28,794 nt of DNA from a virus: the IMG/VR virus record IMGVR_UViG_3300006802_009416, positions 1 through 28,794 of that record; one strand, given 5' to 3'. Under the pieces are notes generated by a model. That model ran no database searches. It had not been told where the DNA came from and saw only the letters and a list, made by a program, of their open reading frames with translations. Shown here one piece after another: positions 8,959-21,866 of this stretch; positions within the stretch are counted from its first letter, which is position 1, and each line of letters opens with the position of its first letter. The position numbers were made by a program, and so were the translations under genes.

Positions 8959-9660
8959 ATGGCAACGTCAGTCATAACAGACCGTGACTTATGGGTTGGC
9001 TCGCTTAATCTGAGCAACATCGCGCACACTGCCGTTTTAGATTACGGCGCTGAGGCTGTGGACAATACAACGCTGGCCGATACGACGCGCAGCAATGCGG
9101 GTGGTTTGAAAACGGTCGGATTTTCGATTGACGCCTATTCTGACTTCACCACTTATGATGGTGTGCTGTTCTCAAGTGTCGGTGGCTCGACGCCCATCAC
9201 GTTCGACGTTCGCGAAAACAACAACTGTTTCATTTTCAACGCGACGCACTTGGTTCATAACCCGCTGACTGGCGCAGTTGGCGATATGGCAGGCATGAAC
9301 ATTTCTGGCGCGACTGCTGGCGTCATGGCTGATGGTGTTGTCATGTATGACGATTCAACAGCATCGTCAGGGAATACGTCAGGCTCGCAGGTTGGATCAG
9401 TGAGCGCGACTCGCGCTATGTTTGCAAATCTACACGTTACCGCAGCGGCGGGAACCTCACTTGACGTTGTTGTTCAATCTGATGACAACGCAGGATTTAC
9501 CAGCCCGACTAACCGAATCACGTTCACGCAGGCGACAGGCGTTACTAGCGAGCACTTGTCGGTAGCGGGCGCAATCACTGACGATTACTGGCGCATCAGC
9601 TACACCATTGTCGGAGGTTCGTTCACTTTTGCCGTTGCGATTGGCGCAGCGGATATTTAA
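8959..9660 (+). CDS. Tail tube-like protein A with C-terminal beta domain
   Basis: 233 aa. The first ~110 residues share a clear framework with the next gene: YGAEAVDNTTLADTTRSNAGG here and YEAESVDDTNMADTTRINTGG there, followed by VLFSSVGG against TLFSLVGS. This supports a tail tube fold. The C-terminal ~100 residues are a separate beta-rich part with LDVVVQSDDNAGF and DDYWRISYTI, resembling the capsid decoration-like protein at 6153-6581. It might be the major tube protein with a decorating domain exposed on the tail, or a tube-associated protein. It is preceded closely by the tail terminator gene. Confidence 0.75.
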   Translation: MATSVITDRDLWVGSLNLSNIAHTAVLDYGAEAVDNTTLADTTRSNAGGLKTVGFSIDAYSDFTTYDGVLFSSVGGSTPITFDVRENNNCFIFNATHLVHNPLTGAVGDMAGMNISGATAGVMADGVVMYDDSTASSGNTSGSQVGSVSATRAMFANLHVTAAAGTSLDVVVQSDDNAGFTSPTNRITFTQATGVTSEHLSVAGAITDDYWRISYTIVGGSFTFAVAIGAADI

Positions 9661-9675
9661 GGGAGGTCATTTCAC

Positions 9676-10083
9676 ATGGCAACTTTTGTTCTTACGGATG
9701 CAAGCGTCACGATCAACAGCGTTGACCTTTCTGATCATGTTCGCAGCGTCACAATGTCCTATGAAGCTGAGTCGGTGGATGACACCAACATGGCTGACAC
9801 AACGCGAATCAATACTGGCGGCCTGCTGAATTACTCGGTGGAGGTTGAGTTTTCGCAAGACTTTGCAGCTAACGAAGTTGATGCGACGCTGTTCAGCTTG
9901 GTTGGTTCAACGACCACGGTGATCATTAAGCCGACTTCGAGCGCTGTCAGTTCAACCAATCCGTCATTTAGTGGCACGATGCTGTTGACAAGTTACACGC
10001 CTGTTACTGGTACTGTCGGCGATCTGGCGACTGCCACGGCATCGTTTGTACCTGCTGGCGCACTGACGAGGGCCACGAGCTAA
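9676..10083 (+). CDS. Tail tube-like protein B (paralogue of the preceding gene)
   Basis: 135 aa with a strong GGGAGG Shine-Dalgarno. It is one tube-like domain (VLTDASVTINSVDLSDHVRS, VEVEFSQDF, LFSLVGSTTTVII, then GTVGDLATATASF). It lacks the C-terminal extension of the neighbour at 8959-9660, with which it shares the ADTTRxNxGG core. Siphophage tails are usually built mainly from one tube protein, so either this short form makes the tube and the longer one caps or decorates it, or both mix. The chaperone gene follows after four bases, which is the normal order. Confidence 0.78.
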   Translation: MATFVLTDASVTINSVDLSDHVRSVTMSYEAESVDDTNMADTTRINTGGLLNYSVEVEFSQDFAANEVDATLFSLVGSTTTVIIKPTSSAVSSTNPSFSGTMLLTSYTPVTGTVGDLATATASFVPAGALTRATS

Positions 10084-12889: not shown

Positions 12890-13527
12890 GTCGCGGCATT
12901 GATTCTGCTGTCACCACTGACGTTTCAACTGAAAGACATATCAGGCTTGTCAGTTTCGTTGCGCTTGAGCTTGATAGTGGAACTGTTTATTTGCATGACT
13001 CAATCGGTACATTCAGTTTCGGTGGCAATGATTATCTAGGTGTTGGTGACTTTGGCGGGATCAGCACTATCGAAGAAAATCAGCAAATGTCAGCTTACGA
13101 AATCACGCTGGTATTGTCGGGCCTCGATGCTGATCTGCTGGATGAAGCGCTCAACCAAAATTATCAGGGTCGCCCCGTGACCATTTATCTCGGCGCGATT
13201 GATCTGGACACTGGCGCACTGTTGGCAACGCCGAATGAGATCTGGTCGGGTGTCACTGATATTGCCCGAATTGCGTTAGGTGCTGGAAATGAAAACGCCA
13301 TTGAAATCACTTGTGAATCGGATTTTGCCAAACTCGAAAAGATTAACGGCAGAACCTTCAGTGATGCTGATCTACAGGCCGAGTATTCCGGTGACACGTT
13401 TCTGCAATATTTGGCGGCGATGGAGGATGCAAAAGTTGTCTGGCGCGGCGAAAACGCAAACAAGTTTGGTAAGCCGGGGCGGGATGGAAACGATCCTAGA
13501 ATTGCGCCTAAGTTTATGGGTTTTTGA
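12886..13527 (+). CDS. Tail tip/hub protein
   Basis: 213 aa. Shows RLVSFVALELDSGTVYLHDS, FSFGGNDYLGVGDFGGIS and LSGLDADLLDEALNQNYQGR with a following YLGAIDLDTGAL. This layout is common in minor tail proteins encoded between distal tail and NlpC/P60-like genes, and resembles a gpL/DUF2163-like hub component without the full match. The C-terminal third (residues about 140-213) is charged and may contact the next proteins. The gene is coupled on both sides: ATGA at the start, TGATG at the end. Confidence 0.65.
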   Translation: MSRGIDSAVTTDVSTERHIRLVSFVALELDSGTVYLHDSIGTFSFGGNDYLGVGDFGGISTIEENQQMSAYEITLVLSGLDADLLDEALNQNYQGRPVTIYLGAIDLDTGALLATPNEIWSGVTDIARIALGAGNENAIEITCESDFAKLEKINGRTFSDADLQAEYSGDTFLQYLAAMEDAKVVWRGENANKFGKPGRDGNDPRIAPKFMGF

Positions 13528-13922
13528 TGAACGAAAGACAAAAAGCAGTCAGGGAAATTATGCTGGAATATGCAGGCGAGCCGTTTGAATGGGGTTCGCT
13601 TGATTGCTGTCACTTCGCGGCAAAGGTTGCTGAAAGAATAACGGGTGTTGATTATTCGGCAGGCTTCGATTACTGGTCAGAGCAAGGGGCTGAAACAATC
13701 ATTGAAAGGTTTGGCGATCTGACTGGCTTGGTATCGCACATTTTGAATCGCAGCCATGTTGAGATAAGCGCGCTCGATGTTGGCGATCCTTGCTTAGTGA
13801 GAATTCCCATTCAAGGTGATTTGCTTGGAATCTACAATGGCAACAATGCAATCGTAAAAATGAAAGCGAGAGCGTATCAGGTTGAGCGCAAGCGCGTGAT
13901 GTGGGGGTGGAACATTGGCTAA
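13527..13922 (+). CDS. NlpC/P60-like (DUF6950-type) tail protein
   Basis: 131 aa from ATG 13527, which overlaps the stop of the previous gene by one base (TGATG). The family signature is FEWGSLDCCHFAAKVAERIT, with cysteines at 27 and 28, followed by a GDPCLVRI beta segment, LLGIYNGNNAIVKM and a tryptophan-rich end. This matches small cysteine-hydrolase-like proteins encoded just before gpJ in many phages, such as the DUF6950 group, thought to help the tail cross the cell wall. I see no clear active-site histidine, so activity is uncertain. Overlaps the tip protein gene by eight bases. Confidence 0.7.
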   Translation: MNERQKAVREIMLEYAGEPFEWGSLDCCHFAAKVAERITGVDYSAGFDYWSEQGAETIIERFGDLTGLVSHILNRSHVEISALDVGDPCLVRIPIQGDLLGIYNGNNAIVKMKARAYQVERKRVMWGWNIG

Positions 13923-16900
13923 CGCAGTCATAAATTGGGTAGTCAATACGCTTGTCACTATTGGTGTCAGTGCTGAAACGGCTGTTGCTGTCGGAAATGT
14001 TTTAACTACCATTGCGGCAAGCAAGACTTTCGCCACTATTGCCACGCTTGCTGTTAGTTCTGCCGTGATGAAATCGAGGATGCCCGACCTTTCCGATAAT
14101 GCGGATTTGAAACGGGACATAAATATCAGGTCAGCTATCGAAGGGCGAAAAATACTCTACGGTGAAACTCAAGTCGGCGGCGTTGTCGTTTATACCAATG
14201 TTGGTGGTACTGACAACTCCACGCTGACCGTTGTCATTGCTCATGCAGGACATCAGGTCAACGATATGACTGATTTCTATCTGGATGGTACGCTGATCGC
14301 TGACGCTGATATCGGCAGTGGTGCTGGTGCCGATAGCGGATTGCAGCAAGTTTCTGGCGGCGCTTATTACAGCGCAACTTCTGGTCAGGGTTATGTCAGC
14401 ATTGATCGCCGCACTGGTTCACCGACTCAAGCAACAAACTCACTTTTGAATTCGCAGTTTCCATCTGATTTCGATACGGCAGACCGTGGCAGAGAGATTG
14501 CGTATTCACTGGTTCAGTTGCGCCTCGAAGAAATCAGCGAAAAAATGTTTGAGTCTGGCGCGCCTTCTGCTTACAAGTGTTTGATTCAGGGAAAGCTGCT
14601 TTACGATCCGGCTGCTGACGCTGGTGTTGCTGGCGCTGATATGATCGCCAATGGTTTTAGTTCTGGCACGTACAAATCATATTCAACCAATCCGGTACTC
14701 GCTGCTATCGATTACATGATGGATGATCGGCTAGGCATGGCGATTGATCCATCCAAGATTGATTGGGATGAAGTTGTAGACGAAGCCGCGTATTGCGATC
14801 AGCCAGTGGTGAATAGCACGACAGGTCAGCGTGAAACACGCTTCACCTGTAACGGTGTGCTTTCCACTTACGACACGCACAAAACTAATCTGCAACGCTT
14901 GCTGTCATCTTGTAATGGTTCCATTGCTTACAAAAACGGCAAATGGTTCGTTAAGGTCGGTCGCTATGGTCAGGGTGCGAACCTTGTCAGCAACGGCGAT
15001 TTTTCCGGTGGTCTAACAGGCTGGACAACATTCGGCACCGCCACCACGAACACAGTTACCAGCGAACGGCTTGAACTGGTCGTTGCTGCTGGTAATAAAG
15101 CAGGACGTTACCAAACACTATCAGGGTTGACGGTCGGTAACCTTTACACTGTGTCTGTTCTGTTTGAGAACATGAGCATCGGCGCATCGTCAACCGCTGA
15201 GTGTACGGTATCAACTGGAACGGCTGACAGCGGCACGAATCTCGGCGGGGCCAATATCGGCGTTGGTGGTCAAGATGGTAATTATGAGTTCGATTTCATT
15301 GCAACAGGGACTACGGCTTATCTGAATCTCTTTATCAATGCGGCGAATAACAGCAGCGGGTTTTTCGATAACGTCGAAACCTATCTGGTCGCTGAAAAGA
15401 CAGTTACGGCAGATTGGCTTCGTGACACTGTAGGCATTCAAACTGGTTTGACGAAAGCTGAAAGATACAATGGCGCTAGGGCGTTTTATTTCAGCAAGGA
15501 CGAAACTTATAAGCAGGTGCAGACCTTAGAGGTCACCAGCACTGTAAACCTATCACGTGACAATCAGGAAGTGTTGTTCAGAGAAATCAACCTTCCCTGC
15601 ACTGATACCGAGGACGAATCGCAGCGCATCCTTTACAAGTTGCTCAAGATGAACGAGCAGAATGTACGCCTGACGGTTCCTTGTAACTATCTGGCGCTCG
15701 ATGTGGCTGTGCATGACCGAGTGATGGTCACCATTGATGAATTGAGTTACAGCAACAAGCCGTTTTTGGTTGAAGGCTGGCAGCTTGTAGACAATCAGGG
15801 TGGCGTTGATCTTATCTTGATCGAGGATGACAACGACTATTGGCGCGACCCTGATCAGAATGATTACGCCACACGAACGGCGACAGGTGCGCTTGTGCCT
15901 GCAACGCCTGAAGTTCCACCGCCGACCAACGTTACGCTCACCGCAAAAACTGATTTACCATCATTTTTGATAACTTGGGACGATCCTGAACCGTCGAGCA
16001 TGTTCGACTTTGCGCAGGTATATCGCTCAACCACAAACAGTTTTGGCTCTGCAACCGTTCTCGTAGATACTCGCGCAAACGCATTTGTTGACACGACCGT
16101 TACTGCTGGAACGACATACTACTATTGGGTGCGGTCAAGAAAATGGAATGAATTTTCTACCGAAGTCGCTACGACCCCGACTAATTCCGCAGCGGCCACG
16201 ATCAGTGCCACGAGCATCGAATGGGCTGCGGTTCTTGATGGTGCTGGAACTCGGCCAGATGACAATGCGACTGTCGGCGGCCAGCTTGGAACAAATATCC
16301 TCGACGAAGGCGGCGCAACGCTTTCAGATATTGATGCTGTAAATGACTACGCGCAATCGGGTGGATTCGTTGCAGCCAATCCCAATGCGTACATGGATAT
16401 CGTCAAAAGTGATGGTACACCGCAAGGCTATTGGATTGGCGATCAGTCGGGATCAGCAGCGCGCACTGATTTGCTTGGCTACACCGACGCGAACCGTGAT
16501 GTGATGGAAGTAACAAACAGCGGCGGGTCGATTCCGGTGATCTGTACAACCGCCATCAGGGCAGACTATTTCAATCGCTTGAAGGTTTGGGCGCGCATGA
16601 AATGCGACTCATCAACCAGCGTCTATATTCGCATGAGGCAGTTTGATACTTCCGACCTTGGCGCTGACAAACTGGCAGTCGGGACAGCATCGCCGACGAA
16701 TGCGGATTCAGAAGTGGTTACGGCAGACCGCTCCTATGGCAACGTCACGCCTTCGGAAACTGCTTACTCTTTGACTAGCGGCTATAGCGAAATCACTGTT
16801 GATTTTGGGTCGGTGTATAAAGATGACGATGACCTGAACACTGGCGCGGTTGATGAACCACGTTGGATTTCGGTTAGCTTTGAAGCGACCAGCGCTGTTG

Positions 16901-18069
16901 ATGTGCAGGTCGATTCTTTCATCGTCTATTGGGAACCGCTGACAATTATTCAAAACTCTGGCGCTCCGACGCTGCTCAACGCCTCAATGAAAGGTTTGCA
17001 ATATAGTGACATTTCAACAGACGATTTGTATGTTTGCGATGGTACTGCGTGGAACAAAATTAATACTGCGCATCCAAGCGGCACTGACATTTCTTTCGTT
17101 GGCAATCAGGCGATTGTTGACACTGTAAATGCATTCGATATTTTTGCTCTTGACGGGTCATATAATGTCAAAGTTGATTCTTCTGCCAACACCACGATTG
17201 ATGCGACAAATTTCTTGGGTTTGACCGCAGGCATTTTGATCGAAGTTACGCAAAACCTCGACATGAACAGCAATAACATTGTCGGCGGCGGGACTATCAC
17301 GGCGACAACTTTCAGCGGTTCGCTGTCAGGTAACGCCACAACCGCAACGACTGCTGGCACAGTGACAACCGCAGCGCAACCAGCGATCACCAGCGTCGGG
17401 ACGCTAACCAGCCTAACTACCTCTGGCCTTGTTACTGCTCAAACCAGCGGCGCATCAGGCGGCGCACTTGTTGCCAGCAATACGAACGGCTCTTTTTCTG
17501 GTCTGCTCAATCAAGTAAAGGCGACTCGCGCAGCGTCGAGCGCATATCAGCTTTTACGTTGCGATGCGTCTGGCGGTGCTGATGCGAAGTTTAGGGTAAA
17601 AGGTGATGGTAATGTTACTTGCGATGGCAGCTTTACAGGTGGCGGCGCTGACTTTGCTGAATTCATGGAATGGGCTGATGGCAACCCAACAGGCGAGGAT
17701 CGCGCCGGGATGGTGGTGCAGATTGCCGAGGGTTCCGGCGGCATGATCGAAGTGTGCACTGACCCCGCGAAAGCCATTGGAGTCATATCAGTCAACCCAA
17801 CAGCAACAGGCGGCAGTGATTGGGCAGGCTGGCAGGGCAAATATGCTACTGATGCTTTCGGTCGCAGACTGGTCGATGAGAATGGCGACAACTATTATGC
17901 CGATGACTATGATCCTGATCGCGAACACAAATCTCGTGAAGATCGACCCGAGTGGGATAAGGTTGGATTGGTGGGAATTGTTCCTATTCTTGACAACCAG
18001 CAAACCGCGCCAAGCTGGATAAAGCTCAACAATATTGGCAACGGGATCAGCAGGTGGTTGATCAAATGA
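13915..18069 (+). CDS. gpJ-like tail tip/host-specificity protein with inserted carbohydrate-binding-like domain
   Basis: 1384 aa from TTG 13915 with a GGGGGTGG Shine-Dalgarno; overlaps the previous gene by eight bases. Order: hydrophobic helical start (1-50); hub region with ILYGETQVGGVVVYTNVGG and AYKCLIQGKLLYDP (to ~355); an inserted CBM_4_9-like beta sandwich (about 356-493: NLVSNGDFSGGLTGW ... SGFFDNVETYL); hub continuation (495-660, TKAERYNGARAFYF); a fibronectin III-like domain (about 665-757, TTYYYWVRSRKW); further beta regions; a threonine/serine/glycine-rich fibre part (about 1105-1190, GNATTATTAGTVTT); and a C-terminal domain from about 1242 with GADFAEFMEWADGNPTGEDR, like Peptidase_G2 self-cleaving chaperone domains. 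It should sit at the tail tip, recognise the host and carry the fibre. Domain calls are from motifs only. Confidence 0.88.
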   Translation: MANAVINWVVNTLVTIGVSAETAVAVGNVLTTIAASKTFATIATLAVSSAVMKSRMPDLSDNADLKRDINIRSAIEGRKILYGETQVGGVVVYTNVGGTDNSTLTVVIAHAGHQVNDMTDFYLDGTLIADADIGSGAGADSGLQQVSGGAYYSATSGQGYVSIDRRTGSPTQATNSLLNSQFPSDFDTADRGREIAYSLVQLRLEEISEKMFESGAPSAYKCLIQGKLLYDPAADAGVAGADMIANGFSSGTYKSYSTNPVLAAIDYMMDDRLGMAIDPSKIDWDEVVDEAAYCDQPVVNSTTGQRETRFTCNGVLSTYDTHKTNLQRLLSSCNGSIAYKNGKWFVKVGRYGQGANLVSNGDFSGGLTGWTTFGTATTNTVTSERLELVVAAGNKAGRYQTLSGLTVGNLYTVSVLFENMSIGASSTAECTVSTGTADSGTNLGGANIGVGGQDGNYEFDFIATGTTAYLNLFINAANNSSGFFDNVETYLVAEKTVTADWLRDTVGIQTGLTKAERYNGARAFYFSKDETYKQVQTLEVTSTVNLSRDNQEVLFREINLPCTDTEDESQRILYKLLKMNEQNVRLTVPCNYLALDVAVHDRVMVTIDELSYSNKPFLVEGWQLVDNQGGVDLILIEDDNDYWRDPDQNDYATRTATGALVPATPEVPPPTNVTLTAKTDLPSFLITWDDPEPSSMFDFAQVYRSTTNSFGSATVLVDTRANAFVDTTVTAGTTYYYWVRSRKWNEFSTEVATTPTNSAAATISATSIEWAAVLDGAGTRPDDNATVGGQLGTNILDEGGATLSDIDAVNDYAQSGGFVAANPNAYMDIVKSDGTPQGYWIGDQSGSAARTDLLGYTDANRDVMEVTNSGGSIPVICTTAIRADYFNRLKVWARMKCDSSTSVYIRMRQFDTSDLGADKLAVGTASPTNADSEVVTADRSYGNVTPSETAYSLTSGYSEITVDFGSVYKDDDDLNTGAVDEPRWISVSFEATSAVDVQVDSFIVYWEPLTIIQNSGAPTLLNASMKGLQYSDISTDDLYVCDGTAWNKINTAHPSGTDISFVGNQAIVDTVNAFDIFALDGSYNVKVDSSANTTIDATNFLGLTAGILIEVTQNLDMNSNNIVGGGTITATTFSGSLSGNATTATTAGTVTTAAQPAITSVGTLTSLTTSGLVTAQTSGASGGALVASNTNGSFSGLLNQVKATRAASSAYQLLRCDASGGADAKFRVKGDGNVTCDGSFTGGGADFAEFMEWADGNPTGEDRAGMVVQIAEGSGGMIEVCTDPAKAIGVISVNPTATGGSDWAGWQGKYATDAFGRRLVDENGDNYYADDYDPDREHKSREDRPEWDKVGLVGIVPILDNQQTAPSWIKLNNIGNGISRWLIK

Positions 18070-18099: not shown

Positions 18100-19287
18100 A
18101 TGATCCAATCACAATTTAGAGGGGCGGACGTTGATGCTTTCGGTCGCCAAAGAGTTAGTCAGGTTACAAGCCTGCTTGATGTAAAACATCAGAACGACAA
18201 AACTCCTGATGTTGTCGATGAGCAAATTATTGGCAGCAGCACCAGCACACATAGCGCTGCGAATGGCAGTGTAACGATGTCGGTTAATGCTGATGCTGAG
18301 GCAGTAATCAGACAGACGTTTCAACGGGTGCCGTATTTCCCCGGCAAAGGTCAGCAATTCTATTTCACATTCGATAACTTTGTTAACGAAACAAATATTA
18401 TCAAGCGTGTCGGATGCTTTCATTCAAACACAACATCACCATTTGATAGCGACATTGATGGTATTTTTCTGGAATCATCTGGTAGTGATTACACCGTCAA
18501 TGTTTACAAGAACGGCACTGCCACCGCGTCGATTTCCAGAGCTGATTGGGATGATCCGATGGATGGAACAGGTCCATCGTTGCAAACTATCGACTTAAGC
18601 AAAAGTCAAATTTTGACCATCGACTATGAGTATCTTGGTGTTGGCTACGTCCGATTTTCGTTCGTGATTGATGGCGTCATCTATCAGTTCCACCGATACA
18701 ATCATTCTAATGTTGGCAACTCCACTTACATGACTCACAGCAACCAGCCGATCCGTTATGAAATTCGTCAAGCTGGTGCGGGGTCAGGCTCGTTCGAAAT
18801 GATATGTGCAACGGGTGGCAGTGAGGGAAGCATTAACACCCTTGGGGTCGATGGTACGCTTAATATGGGAACGACTCACGTTAACGCAAACGTTGCAGGC
18901 ACAAGCTATGCGCTCATAGGCATTAGGCTGAATGCCTCAAAGCCGAATATCTACGCACACATTACCTCATTTTCAATTTTGTCGACTACCAATGACAATT
19001 ACCTTTGGCGACTTGTAAGAAATCCGACTGTCGCAGGTACGTTCACATATAGTGAGGTGGATGCGATCGAGGGCGCGATAGGCGCTACGGCAAATACTGT
19101 GACAGGTGGAACTGAGCTTCTATCTGGATATGCGGCAGCTCGTACGGTTTTCGAATTGCCCATCGAGGCAGCGTTGCATATCGGCATTGCAATTGACGGA
19201 ACGCCTGATGAAATTGTGCTCTGTGCGACCCCGTTAAGCAATAACTCCGACATTATTGCCAGTATTGATTGGCTTAAGTCACTGTGA
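18100..19287 (+). CDS. Phage structural protein, probable receptor-binding/tail protein
   Basis: 395 aa, AGAGGAC Shine-Dalgarno. The N-terminus carries DAFGRQRVSQVTSLLDVKHQ, then RVPYFPGKGQQFYFTF, KRVGCF, GIFLESSGSDY, ILTIDYEYLGVGYVRFSFVI, TYMTHSNQPIRYEIRQ and MICATGGSEGS. I recognise this sequence order from structural proteins found in many environmental tailed phages, where the DAFGR start and GVGxVR segment recur. The protein is beta-rich without membrane segments. It follows the tip gene and so may be a separate receptor-binding protein or fibre. The function is inferred from position; the exact role is unknown. Stop overlaps the next gene (GTGA). Confidence 0.7.
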   Translation: MIQSQFRGADVDAFGRQRVSQVTSLLDVKHQNDKTPDVVDEQIIGSSTSTHSAANGSVTMSVNADAEAVIRQTFQRVPYFPGKGQQFYFTFDNFVNETNIIKRVGCFHSNTTSPFDSDIDGIFLESSGSDYTVNVYKNGTATASISRADWDDPMDGTGPSLQTIDLSKSQILTIDYEYLGVGYVRFSFVIDGVIYQFHRYNHSNVGNSTYMTHSNQPIRYEIRQAGAGSGSFEMICATGGSEGSINTLGVDGTLNMGTTHVNANVAGTSYALIGIRLNASKPNIYAHITSFSILSTTNDNYLWRLVRNPTVAGTFTYSEVDAIEGAIGATANTVTGGTELLSGYAAARTVFELPIEAALHIGIAIDGTPDEIVLCATPLSNNSDIIASIDWLKSL

Positions 19288-19640
19288 TCAAGCACCGCAT
19301 CATGGTGTATCAAACCGCTGATTTGTGTCTTGGCTTCAAGGGGCGATCATGCAGCTTTGAGCATCGACCTTTGCCGGACAGGACACCAGAAGCGCAGGCA
19401 GCGTATCAGCGCCTCAGAAACGACCTGCTGGCGAATGGGATGAAGCACCCGCTAATAACCTACTGCGGTCACATTCTGATTGGAATGCGGCGCTTTGAAA
19501 TCCTCAAAGATCGACAGGACGAATTCAAATGCGTCGAAGTGCTTGAAGATGTGAGGTTTTGGGAGCGTGACGATATCAAGCGGCTGCAAGCATTCAAGCG
19601 TGAACTGTACGGGGACTCGATTGATGCCTTCGAAGGTTGA
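19284..19640 (+). CDS. ParB-like (N-terminal domain) small protein, copy 1
   Basis: 118 aa from GTG 19284, which overlaps the previous stop; ATG 19302 is an alternative. The segment HPLITYCGHILIGMRRFEIL (about residues 55-74) is like the ParB N-terminal nucleotide-binding/nuclease core (G-x-x-R-R-F/W). The rest is short, ending in an arginine/lysine-rich helix. The next gene is a related protein (same CGYKGRELHF-like start against CLGFKGRSCSF, plus GHVLIGQRRFEIM). Phage ParB-like proteins include nucleases and CTPase-like switches, but this one is too short to tell. No partner ParA is seen. Confidence 0.65.
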   Translation: MIKHRIMVYQTADLCLGFKGRSCSFEHRPLPDRTPEAQAAYQRLRNDLLANGMKHPLITYCGHILIGMRRFEILKDRQDEFKCVEVLEDVRFWERDDIKRLQAFKRELYGDSIDAFEG

Positions 19641-20007
19641 ATTTAAAGAATGCAAACAGCCTGTCAGTGCGCTTGTGTGCGGCTACAAGGGGCGCGAGCT
19701 TCACTTTAAGCACAAGCATTACTCAGAGCGCAGCGACGCGCAGAGAGCTATGTACGACCGCCTGAGAGCGCATCTGGCTGAAAACGGCATGTTTAATCCC
19801 ATCGTGACGCATAAAGGTCACGTTCTGATCGGTCAGCGGCGCTTTGAAATCATGCGCGAATGGGTGACGGAAATAGACTGCCTCGAAATCATCACCGATA
19901 TTTATGATTGGCCGATTGCTCGGGTAACTGAGATCACGAACGCAGTGAAACGCTATTACTGGAAGCGAGAGCAAGAGCGATGCGTAAGCATTCCCAAAAA
20001 TCTGTAG
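19624..20007 (+). CDS. ParB-like small protein, copy 2
   Basis: 127 aa from ATG 19624, chosen because the resemblance to copy 1 begins soon after (VCGYKGRELHFKHKHY) and because the earlier frame start at 19567 lies well inside copy 1. It contains NPIVTHKGHVLIGQRRFEIM, the ParB-like core, with GQRRF in place of copy 1's GMRRF, then LEIITDIYDW and a basic C-terminus (AVKRYYWKREQERC). The two genes overlap by 17 bases. It ends 28 bases inside the downstream lipoprotein gene. The pair looks like a tandem duplication that has diverged strongly. Confidence 0.66.
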   Translation: MPSKVEFKECKQPVSALVCGYKGRELHFKHKHYSERSDAQRAMYDRLRAHLAENGMFNPIVTHKGHVLIGQRRFEIMREWVTEIDCLEIITDIYDWPIARVTEITNAVKRYYWKREQERCVSIPKNL

Positions 20008-20168
20008 CCACAACTTTTTTTGTGGTGCTCACAACTTTTTTTGTGGTCAGCTGCGCCAGCCAGCCGAGCGTCGATAACCCGCCCACTGATTTCGAGCGTG
20101 GCGAGGAAACAATGGAGCCGTGGGGCTGTTTAGAGTCAAAGGTATTTGGGAGGGAGGTAGATTGTTAA
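19980..20168 (+). CDS. Small lipoprotein with duplicated signal segment (possible Rz1-like)
   Basis: 62 aa. A basic start (MRKHSQK) leads to a hydrophobic stretch TTFFVVLTTFFVVSC with lipobox-type VVSC; cysteine 25 would be the lipidated residue. The mature part is only ~38 residues, with proline-containing SQPSVDNPPTDF. A short proline-containing lipoprotein near a peptidase and lipase is compatible with an outer-membrane spanin (Rz1-like), but there is no embedding Rz gene around it. The hydrophobic part is encoded by a tandem in-frame 21-base repeat. Start ATG is inside the preceding gene; the end overlaps the HNH start. Confidence 0.6.
   Translation: MRKHSQKSVATTFFVVLTTFFVVSCASQPSVDNPPTDFERGEETMEPWGCLESKVFGREVDC
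20010..20047 (+). repeat. In-frame tandem 17-bp direct repeat in the lipoprotein signal
   Basis: ACAACTTTTTTTGTGGT occurs at 20010-20026 and exactly again at 20031-20047, a period of 21 bases (seven codons), coding TTFFVVL then TTFFVVS. Each copy is also a small inverted repeat (CCACAA/TTGTGG around T's for the first), so both hairpin formation and slippage are possible. Confidence 0.9.
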
Positions 20169-20608
20169 AGCGCATCGCGGAAAAAATCGAAATGATCCCG
20201 TTTACAACTTGCTGGATTTGGAATGCGTCAATAACGAAAACTGGTTATCCGCAGGTTTACTATCAGGGGCAAATGCGTAAAGCGCATCGAGTTATTTCGC
20301 ATATAGAAAATGGAACCCCATTAGTTGGATCGAAAAACAGCTTTATCAATCATAAATGCAACAATCCTTTTTGTGTTAACCCTGCTCATCTTTACGAAGG
20401 AACGCGGTCCGAAAACGAGATAGACAAAGCAATAGCAGGCAATGTTTGCAACCCGTTTGGTCGCCAGCGGTTGAGCGTTGCAGACGTCAAGCAAATTAAA
20501 AAGTTATTGGCTCAAGGCGAAAAGCAGATTGTGATTGCGAAGCGGTATGGCGTGAGCCGAACCACAATAGGGAAAATAAAATCTGGTGACAATTGGTCAT
20601 GGCTTTAA
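20162..20608 (+). CDS. HNH endonuclease with C-terminal HTH
   Basis: 148 aa from TTG 20162, chosen because GGGAGGGAGG at 20148-20157 is a strong Shine-Dalgarno and the start overlaps the lipoprotein stop; a GTG at 20120 in the same frame has no such site. The N-terminal part shows CWIWNASITKTGYP, then FINHKCNNPFCVNPAHLYEG with H64, C66, C71, N73 and H76, a typical HNH_3-type core. Residues about 100-148 form a helix-turn-helix (VIAKRYGVSRTTIGKIKSGD). Such free-standing genes are selfish homing endonucleases in phages, usually not needed for growth. It lies between two host-exit-type genes, so it probably inserted there. Confidence 0.85.
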   Translation: MLKRIAEKIEMIPFTTCWIWNASITKTGYPQVYYQGQMRKAHRVISHIENGTPLVGSKNSFINHKCNNPFCVNPAHLYEGTRSENEIDKAIAGNVCNPFGRQRLSVADVKQIKKLLAQGEKQIVIAKRYGVSRTTIGKIKSGDNWSWL

Positions 20609-21009
20609 CGCAGGCAGACATAGATATTTTTTCTTACCTTCATCAGTGGGTAATTAAGCGGTTTGATTATGTGTCTGACCAGTTTCAATTTGGGAAGGTT
20701 GAGCACTTTGTCGATAAAGATACCTGCGCCGCCTTTGTGGCGTTTGAGTCGATATTCGGCTGGCGATTTAAAGGTGATTGTGATGACGCAGCGCTCCTTT
20801 GGCGAATGATGCTCAGAGCTTATGGGTTCAAACCGATGCTGGTCGTTTGCGAGACTGAGGCAGGCGAACTGCACATGGTTTGCTCAGTGAACGGGTGGAT
20901 TTTTGATAATCGCTACCGAGCGTTGAAGCGTCGCGACGATCTGCCTTACAAGTGGCTTAAAATAAGCTCCGCAGAAGCGGGAGGAAAATGGCATGAAATA
21001 CATCATTAG
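20599..21009 (+). CDS. Transglutaminase-like cysteine peptidase (BTLCP-like)
   Basis: 136 aa from ATG 20599 (the TTG at 20593 is an alternative). The catalytic pattern of the bacterial transglutaminase-like cysteine protease family is visible: C61 in KGDCDDAALLWRMML, H92 in GELHMV and D103 in WIFDN. There is no signal peptide or membrane segment. Related proteins appear in phages near host-lysis genes; here it precedes a lipoprotein and a lipase. It may cut peptide crosslinks in the cell wall or modify a protein, but the substrate is not shown by sequence. It overlaps the HNH stop by 10 bases and the next gene by 17 bases. Confidence 0.75.
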   Translation: MALTQADIDIFSYLHQWVIKRFDYVSDQFQFGKVEHFVDKDTCAAFVAFESIFGWRFKGDCDDAALLWRMMLRAYGFKPMLVVCETEAGELHMVCSVNGWIFDNRYRALKRRDDLPYKWLKISSAEAGGKWHEIHH

Positions 21010-21319
21010 TTTGATCGCTCTTTGTTTAGTTTCCGGCTGTGCTGGAATGAAACCTGTCAGTGCTCACGTTGACCTTGGAATGCTCGGCGGCATTGTCAAC
21101 GTGGGCATTGGCGGGTCTATCGGTGACGGCAAATTTGATCCCGTCATCGAAGTCAACGGCGACCAGAAAAGACCACTGCGACAGCGCAGTTATCTTGATG
21201 AACTGATGGCGAAAGGTGAACCTATAGAAACCCACGGCGCGTTTACATTTAAAGAGTCAAGGAAGCTGACCGATGCGGGATGGATTGAGCGCGACGGTTG
21301 GTGGTTCCCTCCCGAATGA
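20993..21319 (+). CDS. Predicted phage lipoprotein
   Basis: 108 aa. A signal peptide MKYIISLIALCLVSGC ends with a lipobox VSGC; cysteine 16 is the predicted lipidated residue. The mature part has glycine-rich, low-charge sequence (GMLGGIVNVGIGGSIGDGK) then a charged C-terminus ending in GWWFPPE. No known domain recognised. It could anchor at the outer or inner membrane facing the periplasm. It starts inside the peptidase gene and ends overlapping the lipase frame, so the three may be expressed together. A spanin, superinfection-exclusion or envelope-modifying role would all be possible; none is proven. Confidence 0.7.
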   Translation: MKYIISLIALCLVSGCAGMKPVSAHVDLGMLGGIVNVGIGGSIGDGKFDPVIEVNGDQKRPLRQRSYLDELMAKGEPIETHGAFTFKESRKLTDAGWIERDGWWFPPE

Positions 21320-21866
21320 CATGGCCCGTTACTCGCATCTAACGCTTTCACAGTATTGCGTTGAGAGTTATCAGCGCTCAGATCATTCTGATGGAAACTT
21401 TCAGTACATCAACCCTAAACCTGATCTTCTGGTTTTCAGGGGAACGGACGAAATTCGTGACGTGCTTTCTGACGTTCAATTGATCCTGATGACACGGTTC
21501 GACTCTCACGTTGTTGACCTGATTGGTGAACTGGTAGAATCGGGCAGATTGCAGTTTCCAATCACGTTGGCGGGTCACTCGATGGGTGCCGCCATTGCAC
21601 AACGCGCCGGGATACTTTTCAGAAAGTTCGGATATCAGGTCGATCAGATCGTGTGCTTTGCCCCACCGCGCATCGGAAAGAACAAGCACATTAAAAGAAT
21701 TACGACTTGCTATCGGAACGGCAACGACTTGGTGACTTACGTGCCGTGGTTTAGGCACCAGTCCAAGCCGATCCAGTTGGCTCACTTCAGCTTTCGCGTT
21801 GTATCCCGACACCGAATGTCGGAATACAATCATCTGATGCGGAAAAAGTACGGGCTTGAATCTTAA
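21273..21866 (+). CDS. Class 3 lipase-like (alpha/beta hydrolase)
   Basis: 197 aa from ATG 21273, which has an AAGGAAG Shine-Dalgarno; ATG 21321 (181 aa) begins where the family core starts and is a real alternative. Typical class 3 lipase segments are LLVFRGTDE, the nucleophile elbow LAGHSMGAAIA (serine about 103), ICFAPPRIG-like CFAPPRIGKN, YRNGNDLVTYVPW (aspartate about 152) and a C-terminal EYNHL histidine (about 187), so a Ser-Asp-His triad is plausible. Such enzymes cut ester bonds in lipids. It has no signal peptide. In a phage it may attack the host membrane at exit, or be a structural enzyme. It ends just before a palindrome-rich gap. Confidence 0.8.
   Translation: MRDGLSATVGGSLPNDMARYSHLTLSQYCVESYQRSDHSDGNFQYINPKPDLLVFRGTDEIRDVLSDVQLILMTRFDSHVVDLIGELVESGRLQFPITLAGHSMGAAIAQRAGILFRKFGYQVDQIVCFAPPRIGKNKHIKRITTCYRNGNDLVTYVPWFRHQSKPIQLAHFSFRVVSRHRMSEYNHLMRKKYGLES

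Follow-up and report, generated by a model that had tools for sequence, protein, structure and literature searches.

A conserved phage lipoprotein paired with a leaderless LapG-fold peptidase: a possible accessory of lysis, here joined by a second lipoprotein and a lipase

The virus record IMGVR_UViG_3300006802_009416 (28,794 bases, analysed at its full length and called the window below) carries a cassette of five plus-strand genes at 19980-21866, in the order lipoprotein 1, HNH endonuclease, LapG/BTLCP-type peptidase, lipoprotein 2 and class 3 lipase. The initial annotation had described it as an envelope-attack cassette and, seeing no classical endolysin, had proposed that the peptidase and lipase form an exit system in the place of one. 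The question raised by this locus is whether such a gene set replaces the usual lysis enzyme, assists it, or serves some other purpose at the cell envelope. As set out below, lipoprotein 1 and the peptidase represent a conserved, apparently unnamed pair carried by many unrelated Gram-negative phages, and it is more likely that the pair assists in breaking the envelope than that it stands in for the usual lysis enzyme.

A lipoprotein paired with a leaderless peptidase

The compact gene set was confirmed. Lipoprotein 1 and the HNH gene overlap by 6 nucleotides (nt), the HNH gene and the BTLCP gene by 10 nt, and the BTLCP gene and lipoprotein 2 by 17 nt, while 1 nt lies between the lipoprotein 2 stop and the lipase ATG. 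The preferred starts were TTG at 20163 for the HNH gene, overlapping the stop of lipoprotein 1, ATG at 20599 for BTLCP and ATG at 21321 for the lipase. The candidate terminator 3′ of the lipase was unconvincing (fold z -1.4, terminator-like sites not in excess).

The peptidase scored 36.7 bits against PF06035, above the curated cut-off of 27. An AlphaFold2 model built from a 57-sequence alignment reached pLDDT 92.8 and pTM 0.86; the fold obtained from the single sequence was poor. On this model the enzyme is predicted to have the fold of LapG, a periplasmic protease that binds calcium and belongs to the Lap system for adhesin release (PMC4359373, PMC3032545). The closest solved structures were LapG of Pseudomonas fluorescens and Legionella (Foldseek E 1.3e-6), with Z 13.6 over 116 residues at 2.6 Å against 9.5 for the next fold, and the profile match to LapG 4u65 was at 2e-5. 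The catalytic residues named in the initial annotation, C61, H92 and D103, were correct, as C61 and H92 are invariant and D103 is conserved at 90% or more among the 57 relatives; the GDC[DE]D stretch is kept along with the triad. The window protein begins MALTQADIDIFSYLHQ and has neither a leader nor a periplasmic signal peptide of its own, the latter being a trait of LapG and HvyA and not of the PF06035 family profile. Single-sequence patterns retrieved no close relatives of the window BTLCP from viral contigs, and its nearest isolate relatives were found in the Xanthomonas jumbo phages LucasX and PhiXhv-12 and in Shewanella phage 3/49.

Alignment-based searches yielded about 90 loci from viral contigs and about 80 from bacterial and archaeal genomes (L numbers denote loci and G numbers records), and pairing was counted by script after deduplication. 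Leaderless proteins made up 62 of the 73 viral BTLCPs counted, and 58 of these 62 were preceded by a lipoprotein of 40-90 amino acids (aa) with a C-terminal Cys loop. Such a lipoprotein was found upstream of only 2 of 11 leader-bearing viral BTLCPs, 0 of 29 chromosomal BTLCPs and 11 of 482 control genes, the last being other genes in the same viral loci (Fisher tests on the pairing contrasts, P 4e-7 and 1e-61). As the queries were picked from leaderless, pair-carrying proteins, these figures describe the contrast between groups and not the paired share of all viral BTLCPs. Among the four unpaired leaderless BTLCPs, L026 (LucasX) has a lipoprotein by eye, and the L136 version has lost the last Cys. 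In LucasX and PhiXhv-12, a 47-54 aa lipoprotein ending in PPGCV(D/E)LRK(R/Q)GG(A/K)C-stop lies directly upstream of BTLCP with a one-base overlap.

When 53 of the lipoproteins were aligned, the lipobox Cys, Gly49 and the C-terminal Cys62 were invariant and Cys50 was conserved at 90% or more, giving the consensus LLxGCxxxxPxPFxxGxExxPPxGCxExRxRGxDC, which ends at the stop. The 53 had been chosen by the Cys-loop rule, so that conservation of the Cys columns is in part a product of selection; that of Gly49 and of the PxPFxxG and PP stretches is not. Lipoprotein 1 of the window, with the C-terminal end EPWGCLESKVFGREVDC-stop, is by its sequence a member of this conserved family preceding leaderless BTLCPs. 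No Pfam or PHROG family covers the lipoprotein, any one family being matched weakly by at most 3 of the 53. Distances among lipoproteins and among their BTLCPs were correlated modestly (Mantel r 0.30, P 2e-4), as expected of genes inherited together.

The lipoprotein/BTLCP junction is mostly TAATG or a longer overlap, and the two genes are usually translationally coupled. Programmed frameshifting between them was considered and rejected, since the relative frames vary by locus and no common slippery site was seen. Natural lipoprotein-BTLCP fusions occur at L039/L040, L058 (a Pontibacterium contig), L059 (a Marinobacterium contig) and L196. L188 likewise encodes a lipoprotein BTLCP, its loop not being recognisable, and at L192 the enzyme itself starts with a leader-like segment, in addition to the upstream lipoprotein. 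These fusions and the L192 N terminus place the catalytic domain outside the cytoplasm. A gene lies between the two in the window (HNH), L033 (nuclease-like, by eye), L185 and L193. As relatives couple lipoprotein and BTLCP directly, with no HNH gene between, the HNH gene of the window is most simply read as an insertion separating two genes that belong together.

Two kinds of neighbour recur at these loci. Nuclease-like genes of the secreted HNH-like, SNase-like and HNH types (those outside the window assigned by eye) lie beside or inside the unit at L136:3925-4293, L033:5595-5996, L053:9178-9597 and 20163-20608 of the window; their presence may reflect chance, homing or DNA clearance at lysis. 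Reverse-transcriptase-like genes lie directly 5′ of the lipoprotein at L032:3468-4520 and L153:1201-2259, and phrog_1423 was found in three upstream neighbours, which suggests diversity-generating retroelements adjoining the pair.

Lysis genes around the pair and the lipase of the window

Pfam and PHROG scans of the window recovered no classical endolysin family, in agreement with the initial annotation, but this absence carries no weight. The record is incomplete and has no terminase among its genes, and contig L013 (record G001), whose major capsid protein is 100% identical to that of the window, reaches 5.7 kb further left and adds a large terminase subunit (TerL, by eye) and additional fibre genes. 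The window is thus a fragment, and the lack of an endolysin within it is uninformative. In L015 (record G002), a relative with a capsid protein 70% identical, no obvious lysis gene was found within 3 kb upstream of the terminase block. NinG relatives, fetched to look to the right of the window, had little else in common with it.

The lysis genes of relatives were more informative. When 50 BTLCP-carrying records were searched for six endolysin families (PF08291, PF00959, PF05838, PF01510, PF13539 and PF00182), a recognisable endolysin was found in 19. In 9 of these 19, among them the possibly related L138 and L139, it lay within 2 kb of BTLCP, whereas random placement would give 2.0 (P 5e-5). 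At L136, L138 and L139, genes for membrane proteins are followed by those for a GH108 endolysin, another membrane protein, the lipoprotein, BTLCP, a protein that by eye is secreted and HNH-like, and an Rz-like spanin. An Amidase_3 gene lies 334 nt downstream of the pair at L158, GTA_holin_3TM lies downstream at L171, and L188 has a GH19 enzyme. An M15 peptidase directly follows BTLCP at L143, L051 and in Shewanella phage 3/49, and in the jumbo phage PhiXhv-12 two glycoside hydrolases and Rz/Rz1 are located just upstream of the pair. The description as an envelope-attack cassette was therefore retained in part: the gene set is compact and envelope-directed, and relatives of its lipoprotein-BTLCP core lie inside or next to holin, endolysin or Rz genes in several phage lineages, but its reading as an endolysin replacement is not supported.

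The lipase scored 35.8 bits against PF01764 (cut-off 22). Its nucleophile is Ser87 in GHSMG, which fits the GxSxG motif, and Asp136 and His171 are the likely catalytic partners; phmmer matched it to fungal class 3 lipases around GHSxG. Single-sequence patterns found no close relatives of it in viral contigs, where an exact 30-mer from the gene also had no match. Lipoprotein 2 lacks the Cys loop and had no relatives in phages, plasmids, Pfam, PHROG or PDB. Together they repeat the layout of an exported lipoprotein followed by a leaderless hydrolase. Only 1 of the 50 BTLCP records carried a class 3 lipase (L053, 4 kb downstream of its BTLCP, which bears a lipobox-like leader), so the lipase is a local addition, and a joint role of lipase and peptidase, from one operon, is speculation.

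A lysis accessory weighed against other roles

We tentatively propose, at slightly less than an even chance, that the pair forms an envelope protease with the LapG fold, split over two genes and anchored by the lipoprotein, which serves as an accessory of lysis and is interrupted in the window by the HNH gene and extended by the lipoprotein-lipase unit. In its favour are the predicted LapG fold, the pairing and usual translational coupling, the natural fusions and the lysis genes around the pair in relatives. Lipoprotein 1 would be exported and lipidated, and its C-terminal Cys-Cys loop, probably closed by a disulfide, would sit in the periplasm, with the outer membrane as its most likely site. 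The peptidase, having no leader, would remain cytoplasmic until the inner membrane is opened by the holin; once in the periplasm it would dock on lipoprotein 1 and cleave envelope proteins, aiding envelope break-up alongside ordinary endolysin and spanins. In the window phage, the HNH gene would have landed between lipoprotein 1 and the peptidase, and lipoprotein 2 with the class 3 lipase, a second unit of lipoprotein and leaderless hydrolase, would add a predicted lipid-directed activity. Many endolysins wait in the cytoplasm for the holin, and a leaderless enzyme with an exported partner fits the same pattern.

Several observations weigh against this proposal. The link of the pair to lysis is statistical and not universal. 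In about half of the endolysin-bearing records the pair lies far from the endolysin, LucasX-like jumbo phages carry it as a small lone unit near a thymidylate kinase gene, and other pair loci adjoin tail fibres. The cassette of the window itself has no adjacent holin or endolysin. The loci are not all independent, as L138 and L139 may share descent. BTLCPs of known function, LapG and HvyA, remodel surface adhesins or capsule and do not serve lysis (PMC4359373, PMC4241560).

The main rival is superinfection exclusion or receptor inactivation, in which lipoprotein 1 would bind an outer-membrane receptor from the periplasm, as T5 Llp, Cor and Rtp45 do, while BTLCP trims or releases surface proteins and so spares progeny from loss to debris or infected cells. 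Small phage lipoproteins with a single disulfide do act in this way: Rtp45, a lipoprotein of about 6 kDa with one disulfide (Cys30-Cys38), exerts its effect on LptD from within the periplasm (PMC12685063). In the window and in several relatives, tail-tip or tail-fibre genes precede the pair, and one of the 53 lipoproteins weakly matched the Cor PHROG (E 3e-4), short lipoproteins being prone to match badly. Unlike receptor-specific exclusion proteins, however, the lipoproteins share the same C-terminal motif across phages of widely different genome size and host, and neither fusion to a protease nor strict pairing with a leaderless BTLCP appears in descriptions of Llp, Cor or Rtp45. With the significant clustering near endolysins also against it, we regard exclusion as unlikely. 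The second rival, remodelling of the host surface by an auxiliary gene, would have BTLCP cleave giant adhesins or affect capsule in the infected cell, as LapG or HvyA does. The enzyme shares its fold and triad with LapG, both capsule and sensitivity to phage are controlled by HvyA (PMC4241560), and a river-virus survey ranks BTLCP, which it found spread over viral clusters, as the most frequent auxiliary metabolic gene (AMG) and proposes surface or biofilm roles (PMC11283719). LapG and HvyA have export signals of their own, though, the chromosomal BTLCPs have no lipoprotein partner, and activity in living cells would leave the loss of the leader unexplained; this role is considered unlikely, though it and exclusion are both live rivals of the lysis reading.

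Tail-tip peptidases are common in siphophages, and the cassette follows the tail block, which would suit BTLCP or lipase as a tail-associated enzyme used during infection. An exported lipoprotein partner is not a usual virion part, however, and at the lysis-cassette loci the pair stands apart from tail genes, making a virion function quite improbable. The proposal that peptidase and lipase are themselves the exit enzymes has in its favour the endolysin-free scans of the window and the coupling of the lipase to the cassette. It is not supported and is very improbable: the contig is partial, endolysins were recognised in 19 of the 50 BTLCP records, often adjacent, against a lipase in one, and LapG-type enzymes are proteases, not known as murein hydrolases. 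A murein role for BTLCP is possible, and nothing in the analysis supports it.

The accessory role might be one case of a more general phage design, in which an envelope lipoprotein is the waiting receptor for a holin-released leaderless hydrolase, here a class 3 lipase as well as the widespread, unnamed LapG-type protease, so that the exit step would hit outer-membrane proteins and lipids besides murein; we consider this generalisation doubtful. For BTLCP, the commonest AMG of the river-virus survey, a place in host lysis or exclusion can now be tested on the strength of the strict pairing of its leaderless versions, the fusions seen in nature and the clustering near endolysins. An unclassified lipoprotein family is also identified, in phages ranging from about 30 kb to more than 300 kb. 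Should the pair act in lysis, it would offer a way through the outer envelope of Gram-negative hosts that relies on protein cleavage and differs from that of the spanins.

Gene content of the window and comparison with known systems

Gene order in the window starts with a LamG-domain fibre gene and continues with genes for portal, protease, major capsid, connector and tail proteins, a J-like tail tip and the cassette (Table 1). The cassette is followed 3′ by a phrog_1362 gene (unknown function), HNH, replication-initiation-like, Erf-type annealing protein, RecE-like exonuclease, NinB and NinG genes. Between the fibre genes and portal, at 2091-2682, are encoded a 124 aa protein that has a coiled coil and a single transmembrane segment at its N terminus, and a 70 aa protein with two transmembrane segments (phrog_502), which are putative holin-like candidates of the window phage. 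Major tail protein paralogues, 36% identical, lie side by side at 8959-10083. The DUF6950 gene (13524-13922) was considered as a hidden endolysin and rejected; an NlpC/P60-type Cys region was seen by eye, but it has no clear catalytic His and occupies a tail-tip position. The Peptidase_G2 domain of the J-like protein (intramolecular chaperone autoprocessing) is at its C-terminus. In the interval between the tail block and the cassette (19284-20007), two short ParB-like genes in tandem appear by eye to be paralogues sharing the motifs GxKGR...H and HxLIGxRRFEI. Upstream of the terminase genes in record G002, a 371 aa open reading frame (L023:1705-2820) has, by eye, an ATPase-like N-terminal and a GNAT-like C-terminal part.

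Table 1. Features of the cassette and of the tail block 5′ of it.
Feature	Position	Strand	Evidence and remarks
Tail tip J-like protein with Peptidase_G2 domain	13915..18069	+	phrog_31, phrog_5616, PF11962; tail block 5′ of cassette
Virion structural protein	18100..19287	+	phrog_1645 1.9e-69; 5′ of cassette
Lipoprotein 1, 62 aa, signal II peptide, lipobox VSC	19980..20168	+	lipobox in sequence; mature part ends PPTDFERGEETMEPWGCLESKVFGREVDC-stop
HNH endonuclease, homing-type, C-terminal HTH (HTH_7)	20163..20608	+	PF13392 and PF02796 above cut-off; phrog_59 8e-24
BTLCP/Peptidase_C93, leaderless, predicted LapG-fold cysteine peptidase, triad C61-H92-D103	20599..21009	+	PF06035 4.7e-9
Lipoprotein 2, 108 aa, lipobox CLVSGC	20993..21319	+	lipobox in sequence; overlaps BTLCP
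Class 3 lipase, leaderless, 181 aa from ATG 21321	21321..21866	+	PF01764 above cut-off; phrog_21992 esterase/lipase 2.8e-11

Among known systems, the peptidase resembles LapG/BTLCP (PF06035, MEROPS C93) in its predicted fold, its C-H-D triad, the GDC[DE]D stretch by the nucleophile and a score above the curated cut-off. It differs in being short (136 aa), phage-borne and without a signal peptide, and in having as partner not LapD but a separate lipoprotein, to which some relatives are fused. The BTLCP-like genes of Shewanella phages 3/49, 1/4 and 1/40 and the river-virus BTLCP "AMG" belong to the same enzyme family, and in phage 3/49 BTLCP lies directly upstream of an M15 endolysin, but the BTLCP of 3/49 bears a leader itself and is unpaired; the accessible passages of these earlier accounts do not mention a lipoprotein partner. 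A literature search found no text joining lysis genes with BTLCP, or a lysis cassette with transglutaminase, in phage, which is weak evidence given that subscription papers were mostly outside its coverage.

Lipoprotein 1 is, like the o-spanin Rz1, a small lipoprotein, probably of outer-membrane type, whose relatives occur near lysis genes. Unlike Rz1, it is not nested with a coiled-coil i-spanin, its neighbours being HNH and BTLCP genes, and its family has a conserved C-terminal Cys loop; moreover, Rz/Rz1 in PhiXhv-12 and the Rz-like spanin at L136, L138 and L139 are encoded separately. Llp, Cor and Rtp45 are similar in size, lipidation, a probable single disulfide and frequent nearness to receptor-binding genes, whereas the regular neighbour of the present lipoproteins is a protease, and 52 of the 53 had no Cor family match. 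The window lipase is of the same family as the class 3 lipases of other phages (Cylindrospermopsis phage Cr-LKS4; phrog_21992), and mycobacteriophage LysB provides a precedent for the use of a lipolytic enzyme in phage exit. The window enzyme, whose lipolytic activity is predicted, differs from these in being coupled to a lipoprotein in a phage with a presumably Gram-negative host.

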